NCBI GenBank assembly: GCA_029785235.1
Contig: JAFMAA010000021.1
Location: forward strand, 1-12,896
DNA length: 12,896 bases
DNA from: Nitrososphaerota archaeon
Lineage (GTDB): Archaea > Thermoproteota > Nitrososphaeria > Nitrososphaerales > UBA183
Direction of reading: 5' to 3'
Under the pieces are notes generated by a model that was given only the letters and a program-made list of their open reading frames with translations, searched no databases and was not told the origin of the DNA. How positions within the stretch are numbered: position 1 is the stretch's first letter; the number at the start of each line of letters is the position of its first letter. Shown in pieces: positions 1 to 12,896 of the stretch. Position numbers and translations under genes: made by a program.

Positions 1-1179
1 ATCATCTCCACGACCCTCGACATCGAAGGGGAATGGGTCCACCGGGGCCTTGCGTATGAGACCAAGGACGCTACATGGCTCATCCTCGCGTCCCGCACAG
101 CGACCCGGGCGAACCTCATTACGCTCTTCGAGCACAAAGGAGCCGTATCCGACCACACCGTACATCGGGTACTTCTCGCGGTGATGGTACCCTCGGCCGT
201 GATCGAAGGCGCCCGGAAGCTGGGGGTCTCGATCTACAAGTTCCCGAGCGAGCCAAAATTTACCCAGATACCTTGCTCACTATGCGGGACTCGTATCGAT
301 GCGGCCCACTACCCATGGCGGTGCCCTCAATGCCCTTCAGAATTCGGCAGTGATTACCGTCTGGTGATCTGTCACCGTTGCGGGATCCCGTACCGTACTT
401 CGCCCAGGATGGAGCGGGAGGTCTACACCACCATTGATGACGAAGAGGTGTGGAGCAAGCATTCCTTCTGCCCGGACTGCCGGCGCGAGGACCTTACCAG
501 CCCCGTACTAGGGTTCGATGGCACCGCACGCAATCTCATCCTATACGGCTTGCTGAAGGGCAAGCTCAAGATCGAGAGGTTGCCCATGCTCGGAGTTCCA
601 CAACCGTATGTCGAACGGGTGATCCGACCTTCCTTCATGCGAGTGGCCGCCTTACCCCGGGGCAGCGCCATCACGAAAGAGCTTGAGATGGCCCCGCTTT
701 CGGAACTGACGGCCGCCCAGGGTCAGGCCCAGCTCTTGAGCGCGATGGTAGCGGAGGATGGTGAATCGCACTTGGCTATCGGGAAGGTCGTGGATGAGGC
801 GCTTGGGACCAAACCCGCTCCCGAGGCCGTCCCTGTCAATCAGCTGCTCGAGGATGAGATCTCGGCTCTGGAACAGGCTTCCCACCGTGCGATCGCCCGC
901 CGGGAGGAAGAGGAGGCGGCTCCCTACCTCGAACGCATGCTGGCCATGCCTCCCACGCATCTCAAGCCATCGATATCGAAAGTCCTCGACGCCATAGACG
1001 CCGACCTTGTGGAGGCATTCCGTCGCCTGCCAGAGCAGGACCTACCGGCACTCCTTAGGGTCGCTGCAGACATCACGGCGAGAGTGGGCAAGGAACTCGA
1101 CACCCCTCAGTCCCCGGGCGAGGACATCATGACCTACCTCATGCGATTGAAATCCAAGGCCCCGCTCGACGAGGCTTGA
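1..1179 (+). CDS. Zinc-ribbon protein, 5' end outside the window
   Basis: The frame is open from the first base to the TGA at 1177-1179, so the gene begins before the window and 392 codons are seen; the ATG at 184 is internal. Numbering from the window edge, two CxxC...CxxC zinc ribbons are visible: cysteines near residues 92, 95, 108 and 111, then 124, 127, 157 and 160. The part before them (WLILAS, then VIEGARKLGVSIYKF) has the alternating strand-helix look of the end of a restriction-endonuclease-like or Rossmann-like domain, but no catalytic residues can be assigned. The C-terminal half is charged and helical. No family is recognised. A nucleic-acid-binding role is inferred from the ribbons only. 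The gene lies outside the attachment repeats and so belongs to the flank. Confidence 0.8.
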   Translation: MISTTLDIEGEWVHRGLAYETKDATWLILASRTATRANLITLFEHKGAVSDHTVHRVLLAVMVPSAVIEGARKLGVSIYKFPSEPKFTQIPCSLCGTRIDAAHYPWRCPQCPSEFGSDYRLVICHRCGIPYRTSPRMEREVYTTIDDEEVWSKHSFCPDCRREDLTSPVLGFDGTARNLILYGLLKGKLKIERLPMLGVPQPYVERVIRPSFMRVAALPRGSAITKELEMAPLSELTAAQGQAQLLSAMVAEDGESHLAIGKVVDEALGTKPAPEAVPVNQLLEDEISALEQASHRAIARREEEEAAPYLERMLAMPPTHLKPSISKVLDAIDADLVEAFRRLPEQDLPALLRVAADITARVGKELDTPQSPGEDIMTYLMRLKSKAPLDEA

Positions 1180-1213
1180 ACTGAAGTCCTCGCATTCTCG
1201 GACGGGACAGTGT

Positions 1214-1259
1214 GGGATCTGACGACGCGCTGTGCAGATCCCAGGATGTAGGGATCTGA
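1214..1259. repeat. GGGATCTG motif, two direct and one inverted copy
   Basis: GGGATCTG occurs at 1214-1221, its reverse complement CAGATCCC at 1235-1242, and GGGATCTGA again at 1251-1259. The first two can form an 8-bp stem with a 13-base loop just downstream of the zinc-ribbon gene. It could be a transcript-end structure or a protein-binding site; no poly-T follows it. Confidence 0.4.
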
Positions 1260-1432
1260 ATGCGTGCAGAACGACGAACGCGCGCGAAGTGGGGAGGGGT
1301 GCTCGTACCCCAGAGTGCGCACACCGTACTGTTCACAAACTCATCGAGCCCAACATGCTGAATCGAGTGGCGAGTCACTTATGCCGCTTCAACAGGGGTA
1401 AGGGGACGGTTTTTACGTGGGAGATGATGCTT

Positions 1433-1453
1433 CCCTCTGCTCCAAGCGGAGGG
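1433..1453. repeat. Hairpin upstream of the TATA box of the 1491 gene
   Basis: CCCTCTGCT (1433-1441) pairs with AGCGGAGGG (1445-1453) with one T-G wobble and a three-base loop. It ends five bases before the TATA-like box of the membrane-protein gene, so it sits where an archaeal activator or the BRE-binding factor would act. A regulatory role is inferred from position only. Confidence 0.4.
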
Positions 1454-1457
1454 ATGG

Positions 1458-1465
1458 AATTATAC
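1458..1465 (+). promoter_or_regulatory. TATA-like box for the 1491 gene
   Basis: AATTATAC is centred about 29 bases before the ATG at 1491, the spacing expected for an archaeal TATA box driving a leaderless or nearly leaderless transcript. No Shine-Dalgarno sequence precedes that ATG, which agrees with leaderless expression. Confidence 0.45.
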
Positions 1466-1490
1466 TCTTCCTCAATAATTATCCTAACAG

Positions 1491-1814
1491 ATGATCGACT
1501 CCCATGATTTAGATTCTTTTCGACATTTTAAAGATCATCCTGAAGAGCTTCCTCGAACTTCTGACCCACGAAATTACCCACCCGACTCCTTGGAGCCGCC
1601 CGGGAAGCTGAGGATTCTAAATCGGGTCATTTCAGTCTTCGCTGCGATCGTTGTGGCCATTTTCCTCACCATGACGGCACGAGGCGTAGGCATCGGCAAC
1701 GACCCGGTCTATCAAGAAGCAATCAGCTGGGTCCTTGTGATAGCGATTACGGGACTACTGATTTCGCTGATTCTGCTGATTGTGACTCATCTTCACACCT
1801 CAGGTAGAGAGTAA
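1491..1814 (+). CDS. Small two-helix membrane protein
   Basis: A 107-residue protein of unknown family. A hydrophilic N-terminus rich in Asp, His and Pro (residues 1-40) is followed by two hydrophobic segments at about 46-63 and 78-99, separated by a short polar loop, with a short charged tail. This is the layout of a small integral membrane protein with both ends on the same side. The ATG at 1491 fits the TATA-like box upstream. It ends 30 bases before the left attachment repeat, so it is the last flanking gene before the island. The function is unknown. Confidence 0.65.
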   Translation: MIDSHDLDSFRHFKDHPEELPRTSDPRNYPPDSLEPPGKLRILNRVISVFAAIVVAIFLTMTARGVGIGNDPVYQEAISWVLVIAITGLLISLILLIVTHLHTSGRE

Positions 1815-1844
1815 GCAACGACTTGGGATGCCTACTGATGTTGG

Positions 1845-1862
1845 AGGCGCTGAGGGGGAGAT
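1845..1862 (+). repeat. attL, left attachment repeat
   Basis: AGGCGCTGAGGGGGAGAT is identical to 12393-12410 and differs from it at both flanking bases. It is a displaced copy of the tRNA-Ser 3' end: discriminator base, 3' acceptor strand, 3' side of the T-stem and two bases of the T-loop. There is no tRNA body next to it, as expected for the far end of an island inserted into a tRNA gene. Confidence 0.85.
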
Positions 1863-1872
1863 GCACACAGCC

Positions 1873-1885
1873 CGGGAGTTCAAAT
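1873..1885 (+). repeat. Inverted 13-bp copy of the tRNA-Ser T-arm
   Basis: CGGGAGTTCAAAT here is the exact reverse complement of 12409-12421, the T-loop and 5' T-stem of tRNA-Ser. It lies ten bases inside attL and points opposite to the attachment repeat. It could be an integrase arm site, part of a palindromic attP, or a scrap of another tRNA gene. Confidence 0.5.
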
Positions 1886-1950
1886 AATGTTACAAAATCT
1901 CACGGAGACGGCTCGGCGTGAAAATCAGCGGGAGACCAGCCTGACGCGAC

Positions 1951-2000
1951 ACTCTTCGAACGTTTAAGAGTCATTGGGCTATCCCGTAGAAGGGGGGACT
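1951..2000 (+). promoter_or_regulatory. hsd operon promoter with palindrome and ribosome binding site
   Basis: TTTAAG (1963-1968) is a TATA-like box centred about 37 bases before the hsdM ATG, predicting a start of transcription near 1992. The box lies within an inverted repeat, ACTCTT (1951-1956) and AAGAGT (1966-1971), a good position for an operator that would block TBP binding. AGGGGGG at 1991-1997 acts as the ribosome binding site, five bases before the ATG at 2003. Confidence 0.45.
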
Positions 2001-2002
2001 GG

Positions 2003-3571
2003 ATGGCTGAGCGAAAGGGTAAAGGGAAGACCCCTGATGCAAATGGGGGAGCCAATCTCGGCTTCGAAGCCAAGATGTGGCAGGCCGCTGACGAACTGCG
2101 GGGGCAAGTCGATGCGGCGGAGTACAAGCATGTCGTCCTCGGGCTCGTCTTCCTGAAGTACATCTCGGACGCGTTCGAGGAGCACCATTCCCAACTCCTC
2201 AAGGAACACCCCGACGAGGCCGAAGATCGGGACGCTTACCGAGCCGAGGGCGTGTTCTGGGTTCCGAAGGAAGCGCGCTGGTCCCATCTCTCGGCGAACG
2301 CCAAGCAACCGACCATCGGGAAGATCGTAGACGACGCGATGGACGCTATCGAGCGGGACAACCCATCACTGAAGGGGGTTCTGCCAAAGGACTACGCCCG
2401 TCCGACGCTCGACAAGGTCGTTCTTGGTCGTTTGATAGACCTCGTCGGAACTATCGGGCTGGGCGACAGGGAGAACCGTTCGAAGGACGTACTTGGCAGG
2501 GTCTACGAGTACTTCCTCGGCCAGTTCGCCTCCGCCGAGGGGAAGAAGGGAGGCGAGTTCTACACACCCCGATGTGTCGTCCGTCTCCTCGTCGAAATGA
2601 TTGAACCCTTCAAGGGCCGAGTCTACGACCCCTGTTGCGGCTCAAGCGGGATGTTCGTCCAAAGCGAGGAGTTCATCAAGGAGCACGGAGGCAAACTGGG
2701 GGACATCTCCATCTACGGGCAGGAGTCGAACCCGACGACCTGGAAGCTCGCCAAGATGAACCTCGCCATTCGGGGTATCGAGGCGAACCTTGGACCGCAC
2801 AACGCAGACACGTTCCGTAACGATCTGCATAAGGACCTGAAGGCGGACTTCATCCTCGCCAACCCGCCTTTCAATATGTCGACATGGGGCGGGGAGGGGC
2901 TACGCGACGACGTTCGGTGGAAGTTCGGAGTGCCTCCCGTTCGAAATGCGAACTACGCTTGGATACAGCACATGATACACCACCTGGCCCCGAGCGGGGT
3001 CGCGGGGTTCGTCATGGCGAATGGCTCGATGTCCTCACAATCGAGCGGCGAGGGAGAGATTCGGAAGGCGATTGTCCAAGCAGATCTCGTCGACTGCATG
3101 ATTGCCCTTCCGGGCCAGCTCTTCTACGGCTCGATGATTCCCGCCTGCCTGTGGTTCCTATCGCGGGACAAGTCGAACGGGAAGTTTCGAGACCGGCGAG
3201 GACAGATTCTCTTCATCGACGCCCGCAAGATGGGCCACCTGGTCGACCGCAGGCACCGCGAGTTGTCAGACGAGGAGATTGCCAATATCGCGAAGACCTA
3301 CCACGCGTGGCGTGGAGAGAAGGATGCAGGCGAGTACGCAGACATAGCTGGGTTCTGCAAGTCGGCGACACTCAAGGAGGTCGAGTCGCACGGGTACGTC
3401 CTGACGCCAGGACGGTATGTCGGCGCGGCAGATGACACAGAGACCGACGACGGCGAGCCCTTCGACCAGAAGATCGCGAGGTTGACGAAGACACTGGAGG
3501 GACAGTTTGCGGAGTCGAACGCCCTGCAAAGGCGGATTCGCGCAAGCTTGAGCGGACTTGGCTCCACATGA
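2003..3571 (+). CDS. hsdM: Type I restriction-modification methyltransferase subunit HsdM
   Basis: This is the N6-adenine DNA methyltransferase subunit; with HsdS it modifies the host's recognition sites, and it is also needed in the HsdR-containing cleavage complex. At 522 residues it has the usual length. The N-terminal HsdM helical domain spans about residues 18-170 ([20 protein letters not shown] is typical). The AdoMet-dependent domain follows, with FYTPR at 186-190, motif [11 protein letters not shown] at 209-218 and the catalytic NPPF at 287-290. The ATG is preceded by AGGGGGG. The gene overlaps hsdS by 14 bases, indicating coupled translation. All key motifs are intact, so it should be active. 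Confidence 0.96.
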
Positions 3572-4852
3572 TGGTTGGCGCGAGCTCAGAGTAAGTGAGT
3601 TCGCGGAAGTGATCGGAGGTACGACCCCCCCTACCTCGGATCCGTCCTATTTCGGCGGGGACATCCCGTGGATTACGCCGAAAGACCTTTCAAACTTTCA
3701 AGGGAGGTACATCGCGAGAGGAGAACGCAACCTCACCCGGGAGGGGGTGGAAGCGGCGGGGCTCCGAATACTTCCAAGTGGAACCGTACTGCTTTCCACT
3801 CGGGCTCCTATCGGCTACGTTGCTATTGCAAAGAACCCCATTACCACGAATCAGGGATTCAGGAATCTCATCGTCAAGCCAGGTTTCGAACCCGAGTTTA
3901 TTTATTACCTTCTTAAGCTCGACACCGAGCGCCTCAAAGCCTTCTCCTCGGGGACTACATTCGGCGAACTTTCGGGCTCAACCCTTGCGGGACTCCGTTT
4001 CTCGATCCCGCCCCTCCCCGAGCAGCGCGCCATCGCCCGCGTCCTCGGCTCCCTCGACGACAAGATCGAGCTCAACCGTCGAATGAACCAGACGCTCGAA
4101 GAAATCTGCCGCGCCCTGTTCAAGTTCTGGTTCGTCGACTTCGGCCCCGTCCGAGCGAAGATGGAAGGTCGCTGGAAGAAGGGGGAGAGCCTGCCAGGGA
4201 TGCCCGCCGACATGTGGGACCTCTGGCCGAGTGAGTTCGAGGAGTCGGAGATCGGGGAGATTCCAAAGGGGTGGGAGGTCGGGACGATATCGTCTGTAGT
4301 TGAGGTTAATCCCGAAAGACGCCTTTTGAAGGGTGAGGTTGCTCCCTATGTAGAAATGAGTCAGCTGCCGACATCAAGTGCCCGTGTGGTTGGATGGGTA
4401 CGACGAGCGTTTACGTCAGGCAGCCGCTTCCGGAACGGGGATGTGCTCGTTGCCCGAATCACGCCTTGCCTTGAGAATGGGAAGACCGCCTACGTTGACT
4501 TCTTGGATGGTTCCAATATCGGCTGGGGTTCAACCGAGTTTCTTATCCTGAGCGCAAGAGCACCTCTCGCCCCACAGTGGGTATACTGCTTGGCTCGAAC
4601 CGAAGACTTCCGTATGCACCTCATCCAAAACATGACGGGGACTTCAGGGCGGCAACGCGCTCCCGCCGAGTGCGTGGATTCCTTCGTTTTCGCGATCCCC
4701 ACGGGAGAGATCGCCAGTCGGTTTGGCCGGCTTGTGGCCCCGTGGTTCGAGGGACTCAAAGCAAACGATGACGAATCGTCGACCCTTGCAATTGCGAGAG
4801 ATGCCCTTCTCCCCAAGCTCCTCTCGGGAGAGATTCGTGTCAAGGTCGACCC

Positions 4853-4856
<4 letters not shown>
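3558..4856 (+). CDS. hsdS: Type I restriction-modification specificity subunit HsdS
   Basis: HsdS reads the bipartite target sequence and holds HsdM and HsdR together. The 432-residue protein has two target-recognition domains, each opening in typical style ([16 protein letters not shown] at about residue 7 and [15 protein letters not shown] at about 238). Each is followed by a helical spacer: [19 protein letters not shown] near 153, and a weaker equivalent at the C-terminus ending [12 protein letters not shown]. The start is TTG at 3558, the only plausible start in this frame that keeps the first domain whole; it overlaps hsdM by 14 bases. A run of seven C at 3625-3631 lies in the first recognition domain. 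The stop overlaps the hsdR start as ATGA. Confidence 0.95.
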
Positions 4857-7930
<3,074 letters not shown>

Positions 7931-7948
7931 ACGAGAAGTTGAGGCAAC

Positions 7949-8362
7949 GTGGTCGACCCGATCTCAACCCCCTTGGCAGCAATTGCCATTGGGTTCGCCG
8001 CGCTAACTTGGTGGGAGGCGCGTAAACAACGGCATCTCCTTGAGACGCTTACCAAGTCGCTTCCATACATTTCAAGACGACGCACAAGAACTTCGTCCGC
8101 CAAGAAACCAACGGTAGCTCCACGGCAGTCTCTTTCCCCAATCAAGAGTGAGGCTCCAACCTCAGAGATGCCCGCCGCGTATCCGAACGTTCGATCCCCA
8201 TCACAATCTGAGTTACTCAAACAGAAAGCAGAGGAAAGACGGCGATTGAAGCTTGAGCTTGAGCGGGAAAAGGAGCAATGGAAACGACAGAAGGATATAG
8301 CCAAGGCAATCGGTTGGGTCCTCGACCGAATTGGAAGCGACGATGAGGAAGACGAGGGTTAG
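7949..8362 (+). CDS. Membrane-anchored coiled-coil protein downstream of hsdR
   Basis: A 137-residue protein of no recognised family. Residues about 5-22 (ISTPLAAIAIGFAALTWW) form a single membrane segment or uncleaved signal anchor. A basic linker rich in Ser, Pro and Thr follows, then a strongly charged helix at about 88-118 (QKAEERRRLKLELEREKEQW) with the periodicity of a coiled coil, and an acidic tail. The start is GTG at 7949 with GAGG four bases upstream. It lies 18 bases after the hsdR stop, so it is probably the fourth gene of the hsd operon. It might tether or regulate the restriction complex, or act separately; this is inference from position. Confidence 0.65.
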   Translation: MVDPISTPLAAIAIGFAALTWWEARKQRHLLETLTKSLPYISRRRTRTSSAKKPTVAPRQSLSPIKSEAPTSEMPAAYPNVRSPSQSELLKQKAEERRRLKLELEREKEQWKRQKDIAKAIGWVLDRIGSDDEEDEG

Positions 8363-8374
8363 GTCATGCTTCGC

Positions 8375-8428
8375 CCCCCCCTCAACGGGAGCATGGCGGT
8401 GCTGAAAGCACCGAATGCCCACATGTAG
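8375..8428 (+). pseudogene. 3' remnant of a second integrase gene
   Basis: In one plus-strand frame this reads PPLNGSMAVLKAPNAHM followed by TAG at 8426-8428. The intact integrase of this element ends APLNGSMAVLKSPTLHQ. At DNA level 24 bases (8384-8407) are identical to the reverse complement of 10994-11017. Upstream of about 8375 the likeness stops and the previous gene's end is found, so only the last 17 or so codons survive. Within it a perfect hairpin, GGTGCT-gaa-AGCACC (8398-8412), is present that the intact gene lacks. It marks an older integrase pointing right, whose body was lost. Confidence 0.75.
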
Positions 8429-8508
8429 AGGCGTGGCTGGTCTCAGGTAAGCTTGATGAACCGGTGGACGTATCTACCACTGGAAACGCATTCGCGGATG
8501 GATATAGA

Positions 8509-8982
8509 ATGACCGCTGAAAACGAAACCGAACGCATTCGTTACGTTCAGTGGGCCGCAGATTGTGCTGAAAGAGTCCTCGCAGTCGAAGATTGGTTTTG
8601 GGGAAGGCTCATGGAAAGCGCCATTCGTCATGCGCGGGCGTGGACCACCTGTCCCTGCGAACGACATCGAATTGTGGCCGCTTTGACTTCCCACAACCTC
8701 TTCGAAGTTGATGCAGGCCGATTCTCTGGGTTCCGCGGCACGGGTCCCAGTCCATATGCGGCTGTATCTGCATGTGCCAATGCAGCAAGCGCGACCTATG
8801 TTGACAATTATGACACCGTTGCAAACAAAGCGGCTTCCGATGCGGTTCAGGTGGCGCGAGACAAGAGTGCCGAAAAGAATTGGCAGGAAGAACGAAGGAA
8901 GCACTATGGGTTACCTGAGCCTCAACATCCAATTGTAGAGCCGGGAGCTAAGACTCTCCGGGACCCTCCTCCTCGTTGGTAG
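8509..8982 (+). CDS. Imm5-like alpha-helical protein (putative)
   Basis: The segment RIRYVQWAADCAERVL, followed by an amphipathic Ala-rich pattern (SACANAASATYVDNYDTVANKAASDAVQVA) and a C-terminal WQEERR, resembles the small helical proteins annotated as putative immunity proteins of the Imm5-like group. This is pattern recognition, not a database match. ATG at 8509 was chosen because GGATGG lies seven bases upstream and the conserved part begins straight after it; the frame is also open from GTG at 8464, giving 172 rather than 157 residues. No clear TATA box is seen for either. No toxin gene is next to it, so an immunity function is doubtful; it may act alone or belong to the older integrase cargo. 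Confidence 0.6.
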   Translation: MTAENETERIRYVQWAADCAERVLAVEDWFWGRLMESAIRHARAWTTCPCERHRIVAALTSHNLFEVDAGRFSGFRGTGPSPYAAVSACANAASATYVDNYDTVANKAASDAVQVARDKSAEKNWQEERRKHYGLPEPQHPIVEPGAKTLRDPPPRW

Positions 8983-9023
8983 CGGGTCGGGGTTGATAGC
9001 CGAAGAGCGGCCCCCCCCGCAAA

Positions 9024-9031
9024 ACATAGAT
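9024..9031 (+). promoter_or_regulatory. TATA-like box for the 9055 gene
   Basis: ACATAGAT is centred about 27 bases before the ATG at 9055, consistent with a leaderless transcript. A run of eight C (9011-9018) lies just upstream where the BRE would be, and a 5-bp inverted repeat (9033-9046) lies between box and start. Confidence 0.4.
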
Positions 9032-9054
9032 AAGAGATGATTCTCTGAAGTCGC

Positions 9055-9513
9055 ATGCCTCAGCGTCTCTTACCCAACCCGAACGAAGGCGATGTGGAGT
9101 CTGCATATGCGAAATGGGATGATTGGGCGCAATCACGGGGGCCATTCTCTTTCAAGATGGATGACGTGTTCCGTGATCTATTAGCCACAGCACGAAAGAG
9201 GTCAACAATTCCCTATAGCGACTTGATGAAGTCATATCACCTCCCGAGAGGGGGATGGGCTCAGCAGAACTCCGTCAGGAAGGATGTCGGGTGGGTGGTG
9301 TACGTGGTCGGGCAAGTATCAGAGATCCGATTCGGGATCTCGCTTGACTCTTTGGTCGTCCGGAAAGGCACTGGACTTCCTGCCCCTGGCTACCACGGTG
9401 GTGACGAGAACAAGGATGATGCTCGGCAGCAGCAAGAGGCCTGTTGGGACCGAATAACTAAACTCTCCGAGGCAGATTTCCAATTCGTGCTAAAGAACCA
9501 AAAGTTGCCCTGA
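9055..9513 (+). CDS. Uncharacterised small protein with a TGLPxPG motif
   Basis: The 152-residue protein is soluble, without membrane segments. Its core reads LLATARKRSTIPYSDLMKSYHL, a helix and probable winged-helix-like turn, then GISLDSLVVRKGTGLPAPGYHG, followed by a charged tail with EACWDRI. The pattern of an IxYxxL element, a helix pair, then LxxLVVxKxTGxPxxGY is one I associate with small uncharacterised proteins scattered in bacterial accessory regions. I cannot name a function. The ATG at 9055 fits the TATA-like box. It stands alone between the Imm5-like gene and a 229-base gap with a terminator-like hairpin. Confidence 0.65.
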   Translation: MPQRLLPNPNEGDVESAYAKWDDWAQSRGPFSFKMDDVFRDLLATARKRSTIPYSDLMKSYHLPRGGWAQQNSVRKDVGWVVYVVGQVSEIRFGISLDSLVVRKGTGLPAPGYHGGDENKDDARQQQEACWDRITKLSEADFQFVLKNQKLP

Positions 9514-9605
9514 ATCGCCACCGTAAGTGGCCCCTCAGGATTAGGATCGGGACGACAGAACGAGACTCGAGGGTCGACTCGCGATAGTGGACCGCTTCAG
9601 CATCT

Positions 9606-9626
9606 GTCCGGCTACCGGGCGTTTTT
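9606..9626 (+). terminator. Hairpin plus T5 downstream of the 9055 gene
   Basis: GTCCGG (9606-9611) pairs with CCGGGC (9615-9620) with one wobble and a CTA loop, followed by G and five T. Archaeal polymerase stops mainly at T-runs, so this is a reasonable end for the 9055 transcript, about 95 bases after its stop codon. Confidence 0.45.
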
Positions 9627-9711
9627 CGTGGCATGCCTGGCAGTGCGCCCAAAACTCAGGAGGGCCAAAATTGGTGTTTACAGGAGGTATCGTTGGAAAG
9701 CTCTCTGTCGC

Positions 9712-9722
9712 AAAATATATAA
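9712..9722 (+). promoter_or_regulatory. Strong TATA box of the orphan operon
   Basis: AAAATATATAA is the best TATA box in the window. Its centre is about 26 bases before the GTG at 9743, so that codon would be at or near the first transcribed base. It should drive the three packed genes that follow. Confidence 0.65.
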
Positions 9723-9742
9723 GTACATAGTGGGTCGGTACG

Positions 9743-10069
9743 GTGGTGTCTGGAATGCTTCCGTTGAACGCCAAACCTGTCGAAGTGACCGTGGACGGTG
9801 TGGACGTCTCTAGCTTTGTGGATTCCAAGTTCCTTGGTCTACTTAGCAAGAAGGTCGCGGGGGTTCGCGCCGCGTCATTGACATTCATTCACGAGGTTAA
9901 CGACAAGGACATTCACGGTGAACCGAAACTTCGAACTATTCGAATAATGTTTGTCGAGCGTCCGAAAAAGGATGGATCGAACCCAGTGTCGGTAGACACA
10001 CAGACCTCTGAGGACCTCCAGGCAACCTTATCCGCAATCGAAGACTTTATGACTCCTGCCAATAGATAA
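9743..10069 (+). CDS. Orphan protein, first gene of the three-gene operon
   Basis: A 108-residue protein of no recognised family. It alternates probable strands (KPVEVTVDGVDVSSF, AASLTFIHEV, LRTIRIMFVERP) and ends with a helix (SEDLQATLSAIEDFM), suggesting a small mostly beta domain. There is no signal peptide or membrane segment. GTG at 9743 is chosen because it falls at the predicted transcription start; ATG at 9755 in the same frame is the alternative. Its stop is three bases before the ATG of the next gene. Confidence 0.6.
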   Translation: MVSGMLPLNAKPVEVTVDGVDVSSFVDSKFLGLLSKKVAGVRAASLTFIHEVNDKDIHGEPKLRTIRIMFVERPKKDGSNPVSVDTQTSEDLQATLSAIEDFMTPANR

Positions 10070-10072
10070 AGT

Positions 10073-10555
10073 ATGTCCTGCACACCTCGGGAGGAGGTAC
10101 CATTCGCGCCCTCCAAGGAGGGTCTTGCCCATATGGCGAATCCTTGGGAGTCTGAGCCCTATCCCTCGGACGAAAAGTTACTCTTTGGTCATGCCACCGT
10201 TGGTCCCGCCGCAAAGTTGGTCGCCATCCACAGCACGTTGCCCGCGTCATGCCTCAGTGGTGGCGAACTCGCTCGGATTGAGATGCAGGTGAATTCGCTT
10301 CGCAAGGAGGTGGAGTCTCATCTCGCTGAAGTTAGGGCCAGAGGAGAGTTGGCCCAGCATGTGCTTGAGATATTCGGGCTCGGTGGCGTGACCACTTCCA
10401 TACTGGATACTTTGGCAGACGAGGCGTACTTGATGATTCAGAGTGAGGGGACGTTGGACCCGCTCACATTCGCCGAACGAAAGGATGTGGATATTCGCGT
10501 TTCCGATTTGGTGTTCAGGCAGCTTCAGCGGCAGGGTCGAATCTCGGAGGCTTGA
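10073..10555 (+). CDS. Orphan helical protein, second gene of the three-gene operon
   Basis: A 160-residue protein of unknown family. The middle (GELARIEMQVNSLRKEVESHLAEVRARGELAQHVLEIF) is a long helix likely to form a coiled coil, and the C-terminus is helical and acidic to basic. ATG at 10073 is taken because it follows the previous stop by three bases, as in translational coupling. ATG at 10133 is a serious alternative: GGAGGG lies ten bases before it, within a perfect palindrome CCCTCC-AA-GGAGGG (10109-10122), and the sequence from there (MANPWESEPYPSDEK) reads like a natural N-terminus. Its TGA overlaps the next gene's possible TTG start. Confidence 0.6.
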   Translation: MSCTPREEVPFAPSKEGLAHMANPWESEPYPSDEKLLFGHATVGPAAKLVAIHSTLPASCLSGGELARIEMQVNSLRKEVESHLAEVRARGELAQHVLEIFGLGGVTTSILDTLADEAYLMIQSEGTLDPLTFAERKDVDIRVSDLVFRQLQRQGRISEA

Positions 10556-10890
10556 GTTCGTTGTCGAGTGGAGGGCTTCCACCCCCCCCGTCCTCAAATT
10601 CGCCTTGCGTCATAGGACCCTTGGATGAAGTTGTAGCTGGCTCGCCGAATCTACGACAAACGGAGAACGCACAGTATCCCGGGTATGACGTTACGTGGTC
10701 TGGTGACAATGGAATCGAGATTCGTGCGAAGGTGAGAGCCTATAAGGTTCTCATTGCCGCTCGAGATTACACTGAACTGAAGGGCGCGCAACGGGATTTC
10801 AAGGATTACGGACTCAATGTCAGAGCCAAGGGAGACGTCATGCTTTACGTCTCCCGGAAGTTCAAAGCCAATGTGACCCGACTTCCATGA
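10552..10890 (+). CDS. Orphan protein, third gene of the three-gene operon
   Basis: A 112-residue protein of unknown family. The first 30 residues are low-complexity (Ser and Pro, encoded in part by a run of eight C at 10582-10589). The rest (YDVTWSGDNGIEIRAKVRAYKVLIAARDY, then a helix, then GDVMLYVSRKFKANVTRL) looks like a compact alpha-beta domain with a basic C-terminus. TTG at 10552 overlaps the upstream stop as TTGA; TTG at 10561, ten bases behind GGAGG, may be used instead, and TTG at 10621 would skip the C-run. No partner or function is recognised. It converges on the integrase gene across an 82-base gap in which I see no terminator. Confidence 0.55.
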   Translation: MSSLSSGGLPPPPSSNSPCVIGPLDEVVAGSPNLRQTENAQYPGYDVTWSGDNGIEIRAKVRAYKVLIAARDYTELKGAQRDFKDYGLNVRAKGDVMLYVSRKFKANVTRLP

Positions 10891-10972
10891 ATTAGGTGGG
10901 CTATGATGGAACACTTGTGGGCCAGTGCACCTCTTGATGGTCGCAAACCTTGCATGAGGGAGCGCGCATAGC

Positions 10973-12340
10973 TTACTGGTGTAGAGTAGGGGATTTCAGC
11001 ACCGCCATGCTCCCGTTAAGGGGGGCTATGTATTCCCAGCCCTGCTCTAGTAGCTTTGGGACCTCTTCTACCGGGACGGCCTTTTGTGTCTTCTTCTCCA
11101 TCCCTGGGGAGGCCCCTATGGTCTTGATGAGGGCTACGATCTCTTCGTCACTCATGGACCCTATGTTGAGCTTGTCCAGCTTCTCGGTCGGGACTCCCCG
11201 CGCTTCGAGGAGCAGCCGGATGACACGGGTCGCGTTCTCGTTGCCCTCCTCTGACTTAGGTGTGGTGAGGAGGTAGGGCTCGGCCCGCTTGTACTGGGCG
11301 CGGGCTTCCTTGAGAACTTCCGGGCCCCAAGGCTTGCCCACGTTGTACCTCCCCGACACTCCGGTGTCGTGACCCAAGATAGCTTCCCGGAGATCGCGAG
11401 TCATCTTCCCCGCTCCCTCCGCCATCATAAGGCGGGTCGAGCAGTAGGACCGGAGGACGTAGGGCCTCCAAGTGACCCCCTCCGGGAGAGAGGAGTTCAG
11501 GACCTCGTGGATTTCCCGCACGACAACGGAAGTGGACAGGAACCCGTTATCGAAGCTTGCGTTCTCCCGTCTCATCCGCGCCGCTCCGCGGGTAGGCTGT
11601 GCTGCCACCACTGGAGAATCCGGGACCAGCTTCTCCCCCGCGTCCCTACGCTCACTCAGGTAGGCAAGGAGGGCGGTAGCTTGTTGGGAGGTCCCGAAGG
11701 TCGTGTATGTGGTCCGTGTCTTGCTCAGGTTGGCGGGAACCCGGACGACGAAGGGGGTCTCAGTGAAAGAGAGAGACTTCCCCCCAAGCTGGAGGTCCGG
11801 TAGGTCTCTTAGGCGCAACCCACTCTCCCCTTGGTAGGAGCCGATGACTTGGGGACGGACCCCGCTGTGGGCCATGAAGAGAGCAACCACCCGACCCCGT
11901 AGGGAGAGCTTGTCGAGGAGCGTACCCAGCTCCTCTTGAGTTGGGACGCGCTCTCTCTGGATCGTCTCCCCGGTGGTAGAGGAAAGAGGGGGAAAGACAT
12001 CGGTGGTGACGTGTCGGTACTTGAGGTAGGCCTTGACCATCAGGAACCCCTTGGCGATGGAAGTGTCGAGCCAACCGTCCTTCTTCAGGGCCGAGGCACA
12101 CTCCGCAAAGCGAACCCGGAGCTTGTCCGGGCTCTTCTTGGCGTTGATAACGATCTCCTCGGGGGTCATACCCACGCGCTCAGAGATGAGGCAGAGCATC
12201 CGCGCGTAGGTGTCCGCGCTCAAGCGGGACTTGAGCGACTTCTCTTCGTGCCACTCCCGCACTCTGGGGTCTTTGGCAAGCAACTCATGGACCCGTCCGT
12301 GGCCCTTTTCCGGTGACCCTTCCCAGGTCTTCTTCGCCAT
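10973..12340 (-). CDS. Archaeal tyrosine recombinase (integrase)
   Basis: This 455-residue integrase would join and resolve the 18-bp attachment sites. A core-binding helical region spans about residues 15-120. The catalytic domain shows the first Arg at 162 (HSGVRP), the beta-hairpin Lys at 207 (NLSKTRTTY), Arg 297 in WRPYVLRSY (Tyr replaces the His of the HxxR box), His 324 in ILGHD, and the nucleophile Tyr 332 in GRYNV. An extra C-terminal domain ends VEEVPKLLEQGWEYIAPLNGS, a tail I associate with archaeal integrases. The ATG at 12340 is about 30 bases from a TATA-like box, so the leader is only a few bases. The gene is intact and not split by the attachment site. No excisionase is recognised. 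Confidence 0.92.
   Translation of the reverse strand: MAKKTWEGSPEKGHGRVHELLAKDPRVREWHEEKSLKSRLSADTYARMLCLISERVGMTPEEIVINAKKSPDKLRVRFAECASALKKDGWLDTSIAKGFLMVKAYLKYRHVTTDVFPPLSSTTGETIQRERVPTQEELGTLLDKLSLRGRVVALFMAHSGVRPQVIGSYQGESGLRLRDLPDLQLGGKSLSFTETPFVVRVPANLSKTRTTYTTFGTSQQATALLAYLSERRDAGEKLVPDSPVVAAQPTRGAARMRRENASFDNGFLSTSVVVREIHEVLNSSLPEGVTWRPYVLRSYCSTRLMMAEGAGKMTRDLREAILGHDTGVSGRYNVGKPWGPEVLKEARAQYKRAEPYLLTTPKSEEGNENATRVIRLLLEARGVPTEKLDKLNIGSMSDEEIVALIKTIGASPGMEKKTQKAVPVEEVPKLLEQGWEYIAPLNGSMAVLKSPTLHQ
10994..11017 (-). repeat. Integrase 3' end, inverted partner of 8384-8407
   Basis: These 24 bases, coding for the NGSMAVLK stretch of the intact integrase, are the exact reverse complement of the remnant at 8384-8407. 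The two copies face each other across about 2.6 kb containing the five orphan genes. Confidence 0.85.
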
Positions 12341-12364
12341 CCTGTAGGCTAGGTGGTCGGGGCC

Positions 12365-12374
12365 ATATCTAAAG
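12365..12374 (-). promoter_or_regulatory. TATA-like box for the integrase
   Basis: On the minus strand CTTTAGATAT is centred about 30 bases before the integrase ATG, giving a predicted leader of about four bases. It lies inside the element, about 20 bases from attR, so the promoter stays with the integrase after excision. Confidence 0.5.
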
Positions 12375-12392
12375 TAAACGAACAGTCGGGGA

Positions 12393-12410
12393 AGGCGCTG
12401 AGGGGGAGAT
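12393..12410 (+). repeat. attR, right attachment repeat within tRNA-Ser
   Basis: This is identical to 1845-1862. Its bases from 12396 are the tRNA-Ser 3' end: discriminator, 3' acceptor strand, 3' T-stem and two T-loop bases; the other three are just downstream of the tRNA. The tRNA stays complete on this side because the element supplies the 3' end. Confidence 0.85.
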
Positions 12411-12481
12411 TTGAACTCCCGCGGAGTGAACCCCCACCGGTTTTCGAGACCGGCGCCTTGACCGAGCTAGGCTACCTCAGC
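12396..12481 (-). tRNA. tRNA-Ser (anticodon CGA)
   Basis: All arms fold. The acceptor GCTGAGG pairs with CCTCAGC and G is the discriminator, as usual for serine. The D-stem is GCC/GGC, and the anticodon stem CCGGT/ACCGG encloses CTCGAAA, giving anticodon CGA (12444-12446) for the codon TCG. A 16-base variable arm typical of class II tRNAs and a T-arm GGGAG-TTCAAAT-CTCCC complete it. There is no intron, and CCA is not encoded. It is the integration target of the element. Confidence 0.95.
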
Positions 12482-12488
12482 ATCCGAC

Positions 12489-12502
12489 CCGGCGTACGCC
12501 GG
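12489..12502. repeat. Perfect palindrome in the tRNA-Ser leader
   Basis: CCGGCGTACGCCGG is a perfect 14-base palindrome seven bases upstream of the tRNA 5' end. It could form a five-pair hairpin in the pre-tRNA leader. It lies outside the element, so it is not needed in attP. Confidence 0.6.
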
Positions 12503-12527
12503 AACCGAGAGCCAGTCAGGGTTCGAG

Positions 12528-12537
12528 GATAGATAAC
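12528..12537 (-). promoter_or_regulatory. TATA-like box for tRNA-Ser
   Basis: On the minus strand GTTATCTATC is centred about 51 bases before the mature tRNA 5' end, predicting a leader of roughly 25 bases that would include the palindrome. It is the only TATA-like sequence I see in this gap. Confidence 0.4.
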
Positions 12538-12676
12538 GTTGCGTCTCAAGACAAGTGCGCGTCTCCGCTGTTGAGCATCCCAACTATGTGGGGTTGGGGG
12601 CTCGCTCGCTTAGGGAAGTTCTCTTGGAATCATCAAAGCCTTTTTCCCCACGCGGTCCATTCATTGTCTGAGCACC

Positions 12677-12896
12677 ATGGTCGCAGACTCCGCTATGGGT
12701 ACATCAAACGCCTCCGCTCCACCTCCCAAGAGTCACCCGGTAAAGTTGAACACAGTTCGAGTGCGAGTTCCCGTGGAGGATCCCAAGACCCGGACCCAAG
12801 ATTTCAAGGAGGTAATCCATTCCTATACGCTCGAAGACGCAGTTCTCGAGGCAAAGCGGTGCATCCAGTGTGGCAAGCCCTATTGTGTAGAAGCCT
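12677..12896 (+). CDS. gltA: NADPH-dependent glutamate synthase, N-terminal part (runs off the window)
   Basis: The enzyme makes glutamate from glutamine and 2-oxoglutarate with NADPH, or serves as the small, electron-transferring subunit. From ATG at 12677, 73 codons are open to the window edge. After a short Ala, Ser and Pro-rich leader come VPVEDPKTRTQDFKEVIHSY, LEDAVLEAKRCIQCGKPYCVEA: the start of the cysteine-rich iron-sulfur domain that opens glutamate synthase small subunits and homotetrameric archaeal enzymes. ATG at 12695 is a possible alternative start. It lies outside the element and is divergent from the tRNA. I see no clear TATA box; a T5 run at 12641-12645 is 30 or so bases upstream. 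Confidence 0.85.
   Translation, partial: MVADSAMGTSNASAPPPKSHPVKLNTVRVRVPVEDPKTRTQDFKEVIHSYTLEDAVLEAKRCIQCGKPYCVEA

Follow-up and report, generated by a model that had tools for sequence, protein, structure and literature searches.

The locus and its empty counterpart

The window, the whole 12,896-nt stretch that we analysed, is contig JAFMAA010000021.1 of a Nitrososphaerota archaeon (assembly GCA_029785235.1), and it carries a tyrosine integrase gene and a type I restriction operon enclosed between two copies of the 3′ end of a tRNA-Ser(CGA) gene. The tRNA gene lies on the minus strand (12394–12481 by ARAGORN; 12396–12481 by Rfam, 61.7 bits). The 18 bp that run from its last T-loop bases through the 3′ T-stem and 3′ acceptor stem to 1 nt past the latter (attR, 12393–12410) recur exactly at 1845–1862 (attL), and the flanks of the two copies differ, since identity drops to 77% once the repeat is extended to 35 nt. 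From repeat to repeat the element measures 10,548 bp. The integrase gene (10973–12340, minus strand) stands 53 nt from the tRNA gene and reads inwards, and the rest of the cargo, hsdM, hsdS, hsdR and six unmatched open reading frames (ORFs), also lies between the two copies. The original prediction had described a complete 10.5-kb integrative element in tRNA-Ser(CGA) with exact 18-bp attachment repeats, an inward-reading integrase adjoining the tRNA and all cargo between the repeats, and the coordinates bear this out.

A close relative supplied the site without the insert. The genome that we call G002, a metagenome-assembled genome (MAG) titled Thermoplasmata archaeon FK3.bin56 and the source of the family locus L002, has an intact tRNA gene and no interruption of attB. 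Positions 16117–16620 of its contig C54 correspond to window positions 12393–12896 at 99.8% identity and positions 16603–18475 to window positions 1–1862 at 95.5% identity, so that the two flanks are contiguous and overlap by exactly one 18-bp copy. Judged by this near-identical relative, the host of the element is a member of the Thermoplasmata. As had been predicted for a genome lacking the insert, the flank encoding zinc-ribbon and membrane proteins sits directly beside tRNA-Ser, and the tRNA gene of the window has been left intact by the insertion. We also counted the 18-mer in two relatives: it occurs twice in G002 (~2.3 Mb) and once in G001, and the pattern read backwards occurs in neither. 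Of the two copies in G002, one marks the empty tRNA-Ser site and the other the distal boundary of a sister element that occupies tRNA-Ser(TGA). Two observations had been named as capable of overturning the prediction, hsd genes fixed at this locus with no empty site and an 18-bp repeat widespread in the genome; in the two relatives tested, an empty site is present and the repeat is rare.

In G001, an integrase 96% identical to that of the window (L001) lies beside the same tRNA, the sequence departs from the window’s after the integrase 3′ end, and no match to the window’s left flank was found in this genome. L001 (JAKBKR010000127.1) comes from a MAG titled ‘bacterium’, yet across tRNA-Ser, flank and integrase it is 95–98% identical to the window; the title is perhaps a label error. 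G002 has a related hsdMSR operon of its own elsewhere (L122, contig C77, 7624–13566), with an hsdR 84% identical to the window’s and a divergent hsdS.

The three hsd genes of the window lie on the plus strand and form one operon, their reading frames overlapping at 3558–3571 and 4853–4856. The DNA methyltransferase gene hsdM (2003–3571) matches N6_Mtase (5e-109) and HsdM_N in Pfam and MTase_I in PADLOC, and scores 185 bits against the NCBIfam hsdM equivalog, under the cut-off of 242.75. The specificity subunit gene hsdS (3558–4856) matches Pfam Methylase_S (5.9e-38), and hsdR (4853–7930), for the restriction and translocase subunit, matches HSDR_N, SWI2_SNF2 and T1RH-like_C in Pfam as well as TIGR00348 above its cut-off. 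By these family matches the type I restriction-modification operon is complete, and its activity is predicted from sequence.

The six remaining ORFs, all on the plus strand and of unknown function, complete the cargo, which had been predicted to be a whole type I restriction system plus orphan genes. The first (7949–8362, 137 aa) follows hsdR, as does a 97.8% identical copy on contig C98 of G001; a RepB-like reading of it (Pfam E 0.022) fell below the cut-off and was not used. No family match was obtained for 8464–8982 (172 aa; NCBIfam, PHROGs, PADLOC), 9055–9513 (152 aa; Pfam, NCBIfam, PHROGs, PADLOC) or 10552–10890 (112 aa; Pfam, PADLOC), and none above the cut-off for 9743–10069 (108 aa; NCBIfam, PHROGs, PADLOC). 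For 10073–10555 (up to 160 aa), a search in which 135 candidates were scored gave one 83% identical homologue besides the ORF’s own record, which appears on six contigs.

Ten element ORFs were considered in all, of which nine were scanned with PHROGs (all but 10552–10890), nine with PADLOC, eight with Pfam (all but 8464–8982 and 9743–10069) and seven with NCBIfam. Among the ORFs scanned, no virion, relaxase, conjugation or replication gene was recognised, including no capsid, terminase or portal gene in the PHROGs scan, and the predicted lack of replication and virion genes holds within that scope. With no relaxase or conjugation gene recognised (Pfam, NCBIfam, PHROGs), the element does not qualify as an integrative and conjugative or integrative and mobilizable element; its integrase, its att repeats and the lack of virion and conjugation genes among the ORFs scanned are those of a cryptic integrated element (CIE).

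The integrase is 455 aa long and extends ~120 aa past its putative catalytic residue, Tyr332. It has no Pfam match at E ≤ 0.1 and, in PHROGs, a weak match to a phage integrase (1.2e-06). Across 35 aligned sequences, R162, K207, Y294-x-x-R297, H324 and Y332 are invariant, and these are probably the catalytic set of tyrosine recombinases. When an AlphaFold model was searched with Foldseek, all 10 matches at E ≤ 0.001 were tyrosine recombinases, with Brujita Int and XerA as the best, alongside the Xer structure 4a8e, an integron integrase and XerH. The protein thus has the residue set of a tyrosine recombinase and, as modelled, its fold. The ORF lies at full length inside the repeats and is not split by integration, as an integrase of the suicidal SSV type would be.

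An integrase family with sister elements

A search for relatives of the integrase in which 7,999 candidates were scored listed 328 of them. A second search detected the family in 67 of 200 genomes, among them G001 and G002. With the integrase alignment as query, a scan of GTDB genomes located 23 loci; the MAGs concerned bear the titles Thermoplasmata archaeon, archaeon (two) and bacterium (one). Of 21 IMG/VR stretches that fitted the search patterns, tblastn confirmed none. The tRNAs called just upstream of family integrases were Ser, Ala, Arg, Met and Leu. At 44 of the 55 non-redundant loci, a T-loop occurs no more than 150 nt upstream of the inferred integrase start, whereas random 150-nt windows contained one in 330 of 11,000 cases; the 11 loci with no T-loop match include L103, whose tRNA T-loop is variant.

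We sought the far ends of such elements by core repeat and arm similarity at 32 loci, five of them second copies of the same locus. Nine loci had far-end scores of 22–30, the best reverse-strand control reached 19, and the remaining 23 loci did not exceed 17. Together with L103 and an element in G003 that includes loci L003 and L035, this gave 11 complete elements, of which L089 and L090 are near-identical. Ten measure 9.3–19.2 kb (L101 has two candidate far ends, giving 9.3 or 13.7 kb), and the G003 element, judged from its contig positions, ~15.8 kb. In complete elements the core starts inside the T-loop or a few bases 3′ of it. A second partial core copy lies further out at L070 (13137 and 17677) and L101 (9596 and 14060), as if two insertions stood in tandem.

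Restriction or other defence genes were found in at least six of the 11 complete elements. This is a lower bound, as the sister ORFs scanned with Pfam numbered eight in L034, six in L082, four in L070, three in L087, two each in L104 and L103, and one each in L089, L101 and L003, with none in L090. Type I restriction genes occur in the window, the G003 element and L104, and type III genes in L087 and L103. L082 encodes Gabija GajA and GajB together with SMC-type and JetD-type (Wadjet) ORFs, beside which are two ORFs that lack a Pfam match; this complete 13.3-kb element (G005, contig C41, ~392–13728) has the two unmatched ORFs preceding the SMC-type and JetD-type ones. L070 encodes a D5/DUF5906 protein and an IS66 transposase. 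No virion family was found among the sister-element ORFs scanned, which are part of their ORFs only. Operons related to the window’s hsd genes are present in the G003 element and on other contigs of G001, G002 and G005. The one at L123 (G005, contig C5; hsdR 83% identical) has its hsdM beginning at 6505, ~1.9 kb from a tRNA-Glu gene at 4518–4592, and is perhaps part of another element.

The sister element in tRNA-Ser(TGA) of G002, L034, is 12,583 bp long, with a 16-bp repeat and an integrase 92% identical to the window’s, and encodes a Prim-Pol and two DNA methylases. In L034 and L003 the Prim-Pol lies in a ~6-kb segment bounded by inverted repeats of 67 nt (99%; 2868–2934 and 8976–9042) and 63 nt (81%; 1575–1637 and 8052–8114), respectively, and the window has ~2.5 kb of unmatched ORFs in place of this segment. 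Related copies of the bounding repeat also occur in L001 and L120, and an origin, an inversion site or an exchange site are all possible roles for it. The window retains a remnant of an integrase-gene 3′ end at 8376–8441 (plus strand), between the hsd genes and the unmatched ORFs and inverted relative to the working integrase: 8376–8427 is 81% complementary to 10974–11025, and 8378–8441 is 81% identical to the 3′ end of the L003 integrase gene, including 12–13 nt past the stop codon. This junction recurs on contig C98 of G001, where it follows hsdR (92.5%) and the copy of ORF 7949–8362 and the sequence then diverges. We considered an invertible segment between 8376–8427 and 10974–11025 and found no evidence that it flips. 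An ~80-nt repeat dispersed among sister elements matches the window over 15 bp only (9528–9542, E 0.34), which we took as chance.

T-loop-like arm motifs and chimeric integrases

Within the element end that adjoins the tRNA, the family has a GTTCAAATAC-like motif, which lies 33 bp from the T-loop in the close group of loci and 32 bp in the distant group. The window’s copy of this proximal arm is GTTCGTTTAC (12374–12383, minus strand), 33 bp from the tRNA T-loop, a position conserved in the family. At the other end, a conserved module (1871–1922) contains the T-loop-like motif GTTCAAAT at 1878–1885, inverted relative to the tRNA. This distal-end module matches the distal ends of the elements in tRNA-Ser(TGA) of G002 (contig C29, 80%) and in tRNA-Ala of G003 (contig C8, 83%); found in two of the ten genomes searched, it is not family-wide.

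At offsets of 31–34, the best arm match averaged 7.18 of 10 at 44 integrase-adjacent T-loops, 30 of which reached 7 or more, compared with an average of 3.71 and none of 7 at the other tRNAs available. This test is partly circular, as the consensus was drawn from close loci. Comparison of each arm with its own tRNA’s T-loop was less clear, with mixed results: at least 7 of 8 bases matched at 9 of 21 close and 5 of 25 distant loci, counts that include the duplicates L009/L082 and L089/L090. At the far end, the chromosomal flank scored 2–5 and the element side 6–7 in seven of the nine listed complete elements that could be compared, and the arm motif therefore travels with the element. The two arms of an element also resemble each other in inverted orientation, with a mean score of 11.55 within elements against 7.07 for 110 cross pairs (top cross score 13). 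Seven of the 11 complete elements reach an arm score met by at most 15 of 1,000 shuffles, which preserve base composition only, and three others stand at 63–66 of 1,000; the scores of L089, L090 and L101 are not independent, because their far ends were picked partly by arm similarity. An archaeal TATA box is a rival explanation of the motif at some loci; several loci carry, by eye, a separate A/T-rich stretch further on.

Alignment of the integrases indicates that parts of the protein have been exchanged. Five relatives (P0009, P0013, P0015, P0017 and P0020) are 32–76% identical to the window’s integrase in blocks over residues 17–300 and 73–91% identical from residue 300 on, where 22 more distant aligned sequences show 13–71% in three tail blocks. 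In a tree of the N-terminal part (121 sequences) the five rank 13, 21, 100, 98 and 108 of 120 in distance from the window, and in a tree of the tail (120 sequences) 7, 12, 6, 11 and 5 of 119, within one clade of 13 that includes the window (support 0.975). P0006 shows the opposite pattern, with 82–94% identity up to residue 345 and 29–58% thereafter, and moves from rank 4 to rank 48 between the two trees. P0010 is also among the chimeric integrases with exchanged C-terminal parts.

The clearest case is the G003 element, whose L003 integrase has an N-terminus that reads as P0015 and lies in tRNA-Ala(CGC); identity to the window climbs from 54% to 83% near residue 281. Its hsdM and hsdR are 89% and 87% identical to the window’s, and its hsdS only 38.7%. 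The distal-end module is common to the window, L034 and this element. Cargo, distal end and integrase tail have thus kept company in both elements, although the N-terminal part of the integrase and the target tRNA differ between them. This association is drawn from one clear pair, and a direction and mechanism can be proposed from sequence: cargo and target would change through recombination inside the integrase gene and at its 3′ end. We tentatively propose, as a reading that we hold to be possible and somewhat doubtful, that the integrase of this Thermoplasmata family recognises the shared T-loop of tRNAs through element-borne arm copies (GTTCAAATAC, 32–33 bp off and inverted at the other end) and that the element switches tRNA target by modular exchange of the N-terminal two-thirds of the integrase, whose C-terminal tail remains linked to the distal end and the defence cargo.

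Nature and significance of the element

The comparison with G002 establishes the precise ends, the empty site and the intact tRNA gene; the integrase is full length and reads inwards, and the type I operon is present. We are highly confident that the window holds a 10,548-bp integrative element inserted in the 3′ end of tRNA-Ser(CGA), with hsdMSR as cargo. The suggestion that this is a compact defence island placed by a tRNA-targeting tyrosine integrase likewise gains support from the empty site and the rarity of the repeat. Acting within the 18-bp core, the integrase would recombine attP of the circular form with attB in the tRNA, and its binding sites would be the T-loop-like arms that the element carries; the integrated element would keep itself and defend its host through the predicted activity of HsdMSR. 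Since no replication or transfer gene was recognised, excised copies would need replication or movement in trans, for which primase-carrying sister elements with a similar integrase and tRNA-Ser gene could serve as helpers. Several points weigh against this picture: that the element is mobilised in trans is conjecture, the AlphaFold model is of moderate quality (pLDDT 76, pTM 0.59), the best Foldseek TM-scores are ~0.27–0.51 with large rmsd, and the window’s own arms are not significantly alike, 834 of 1,000 shuffles reaching their score.

How mobile the element now is can be read in more than one way. It looks like a replication-less member of its family, and it may be a satellite derived from primase-carrying elements and mobilised by them in trans, a reading to which we give a little less than an even chance. 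L034 and the G003 element carry the Prim-Pol between the integrase and the rest, L034 has nearly the same att and shares its genome with the empty site, the G003 element combines the Prim-Pol with the closely similar hsdM and hsdR, and the window is without the repeat-flanked primase segment; a divergent replication protein could, however, be concealed among the unmatched ORFs. The missing replication and transfer genes would also suit a domesticated fossil that no longer excises and in which only the restriction system is under selection, as would the past rearrangement that the integrase remnant attests and the fact that the window’s arms are less alike than those of the other 10 complete elements. 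We consider this unlikely, given a full-length integrase that keeps its invariant residues and is 96% identical to L001, two 18-bp copies that are still exact, and a close relative without the insert.

The weak PHROG match of the integrase might recall a provirus that has kept only its integrase and cargo, but with no structural or packaging gene in the PHROGs scan, no confirmed IMG/VR stretch and no virion family in the part of the sister-element ORFs scanned, this origin is very improbable. A chromosomal hsd locus fixed in place and bracketed by a chance repeat is refuted by the one-copy empty site and the count of two 18-mers in G002, and carries next to no weight; the existence of a natural empty site excludes a chance repeat.

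As an integrative element with defence cargo, the window’s island belongs to a known kind, the CIE, for in the part of PMC6563490 that we covered, type I restriction-modification subunits rank with the most frequent protein families in the integrated elements of Thaumarchaeota. It resembles the Thaumarchaeota CIEs described there in that the integrase is the most conserved gene, the target is a tRNA 3′ region and the size is mostly below 20 kb, and differs in that the present family occurs in MAGs titled Thermoplasmata, another archaeal phylum, and in that its integrase lacks a Pfam match. With pNOB8-type integrases, as described in the sections of PMC8371274 consulted, it shares the R...YxxR...Y signature, a gene left unsplit on integration and a tRNA target. 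Unlike them, it has no Pfam match at E ≤ 0.1 (PF00589 and a SAM-like domain in the pNOB8/XerA family), continues for ~120 aa past the putative catalytic Tyr and uses a core of 18 bp rather than the 40–50 bp of Sulfolobales pNOB8 integrases. Family fam30-08 of the same source is also described there as lacking Pfam domains, a likeness by description only. Integrase chimerism is not a new idea, since chimeric suicidal integrases of Thermococcales, their N- and C-parts exchanged by recombination with a proposed change of target, are described in that source (Badel et al., via PMC8371274); in the present family, att does not split the integrase and the exchange point falls within the protein, around residues 281–300. 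Archaeal genomic islands beside tRNA genes, partly of Thermoplasmatales, are also known from acid-mine archaea (PMC12302457), which in the portion covered treats 25 strains without this integrase family or arm sites and whose main text does not contain the word ‘restriction’. In the parts of these three papers covered, as distinct from preprints and supplements, we met no description of a Thermoplasmata integrase family of this sort or of T-loop-like arms. The arm sites, the modular integrase and the exchangeable defence cargo are thus features of the family not met in the literature covered.

The window provides a defence island defined to the base pair, with its empty site, from a little-studied archaeal class, and its family permits comparison of integration-site choice, cargo exchange and the mobility of defence genes. 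If the T-loop-like arms are real binding sites of the integrase, they would explain how one family uses many tRNA genes, and the N/C chimeras would reveal the part of the protein on which the choice of target depends. Should the modular reading be true, one defence cassette could move between many tRNA genes.

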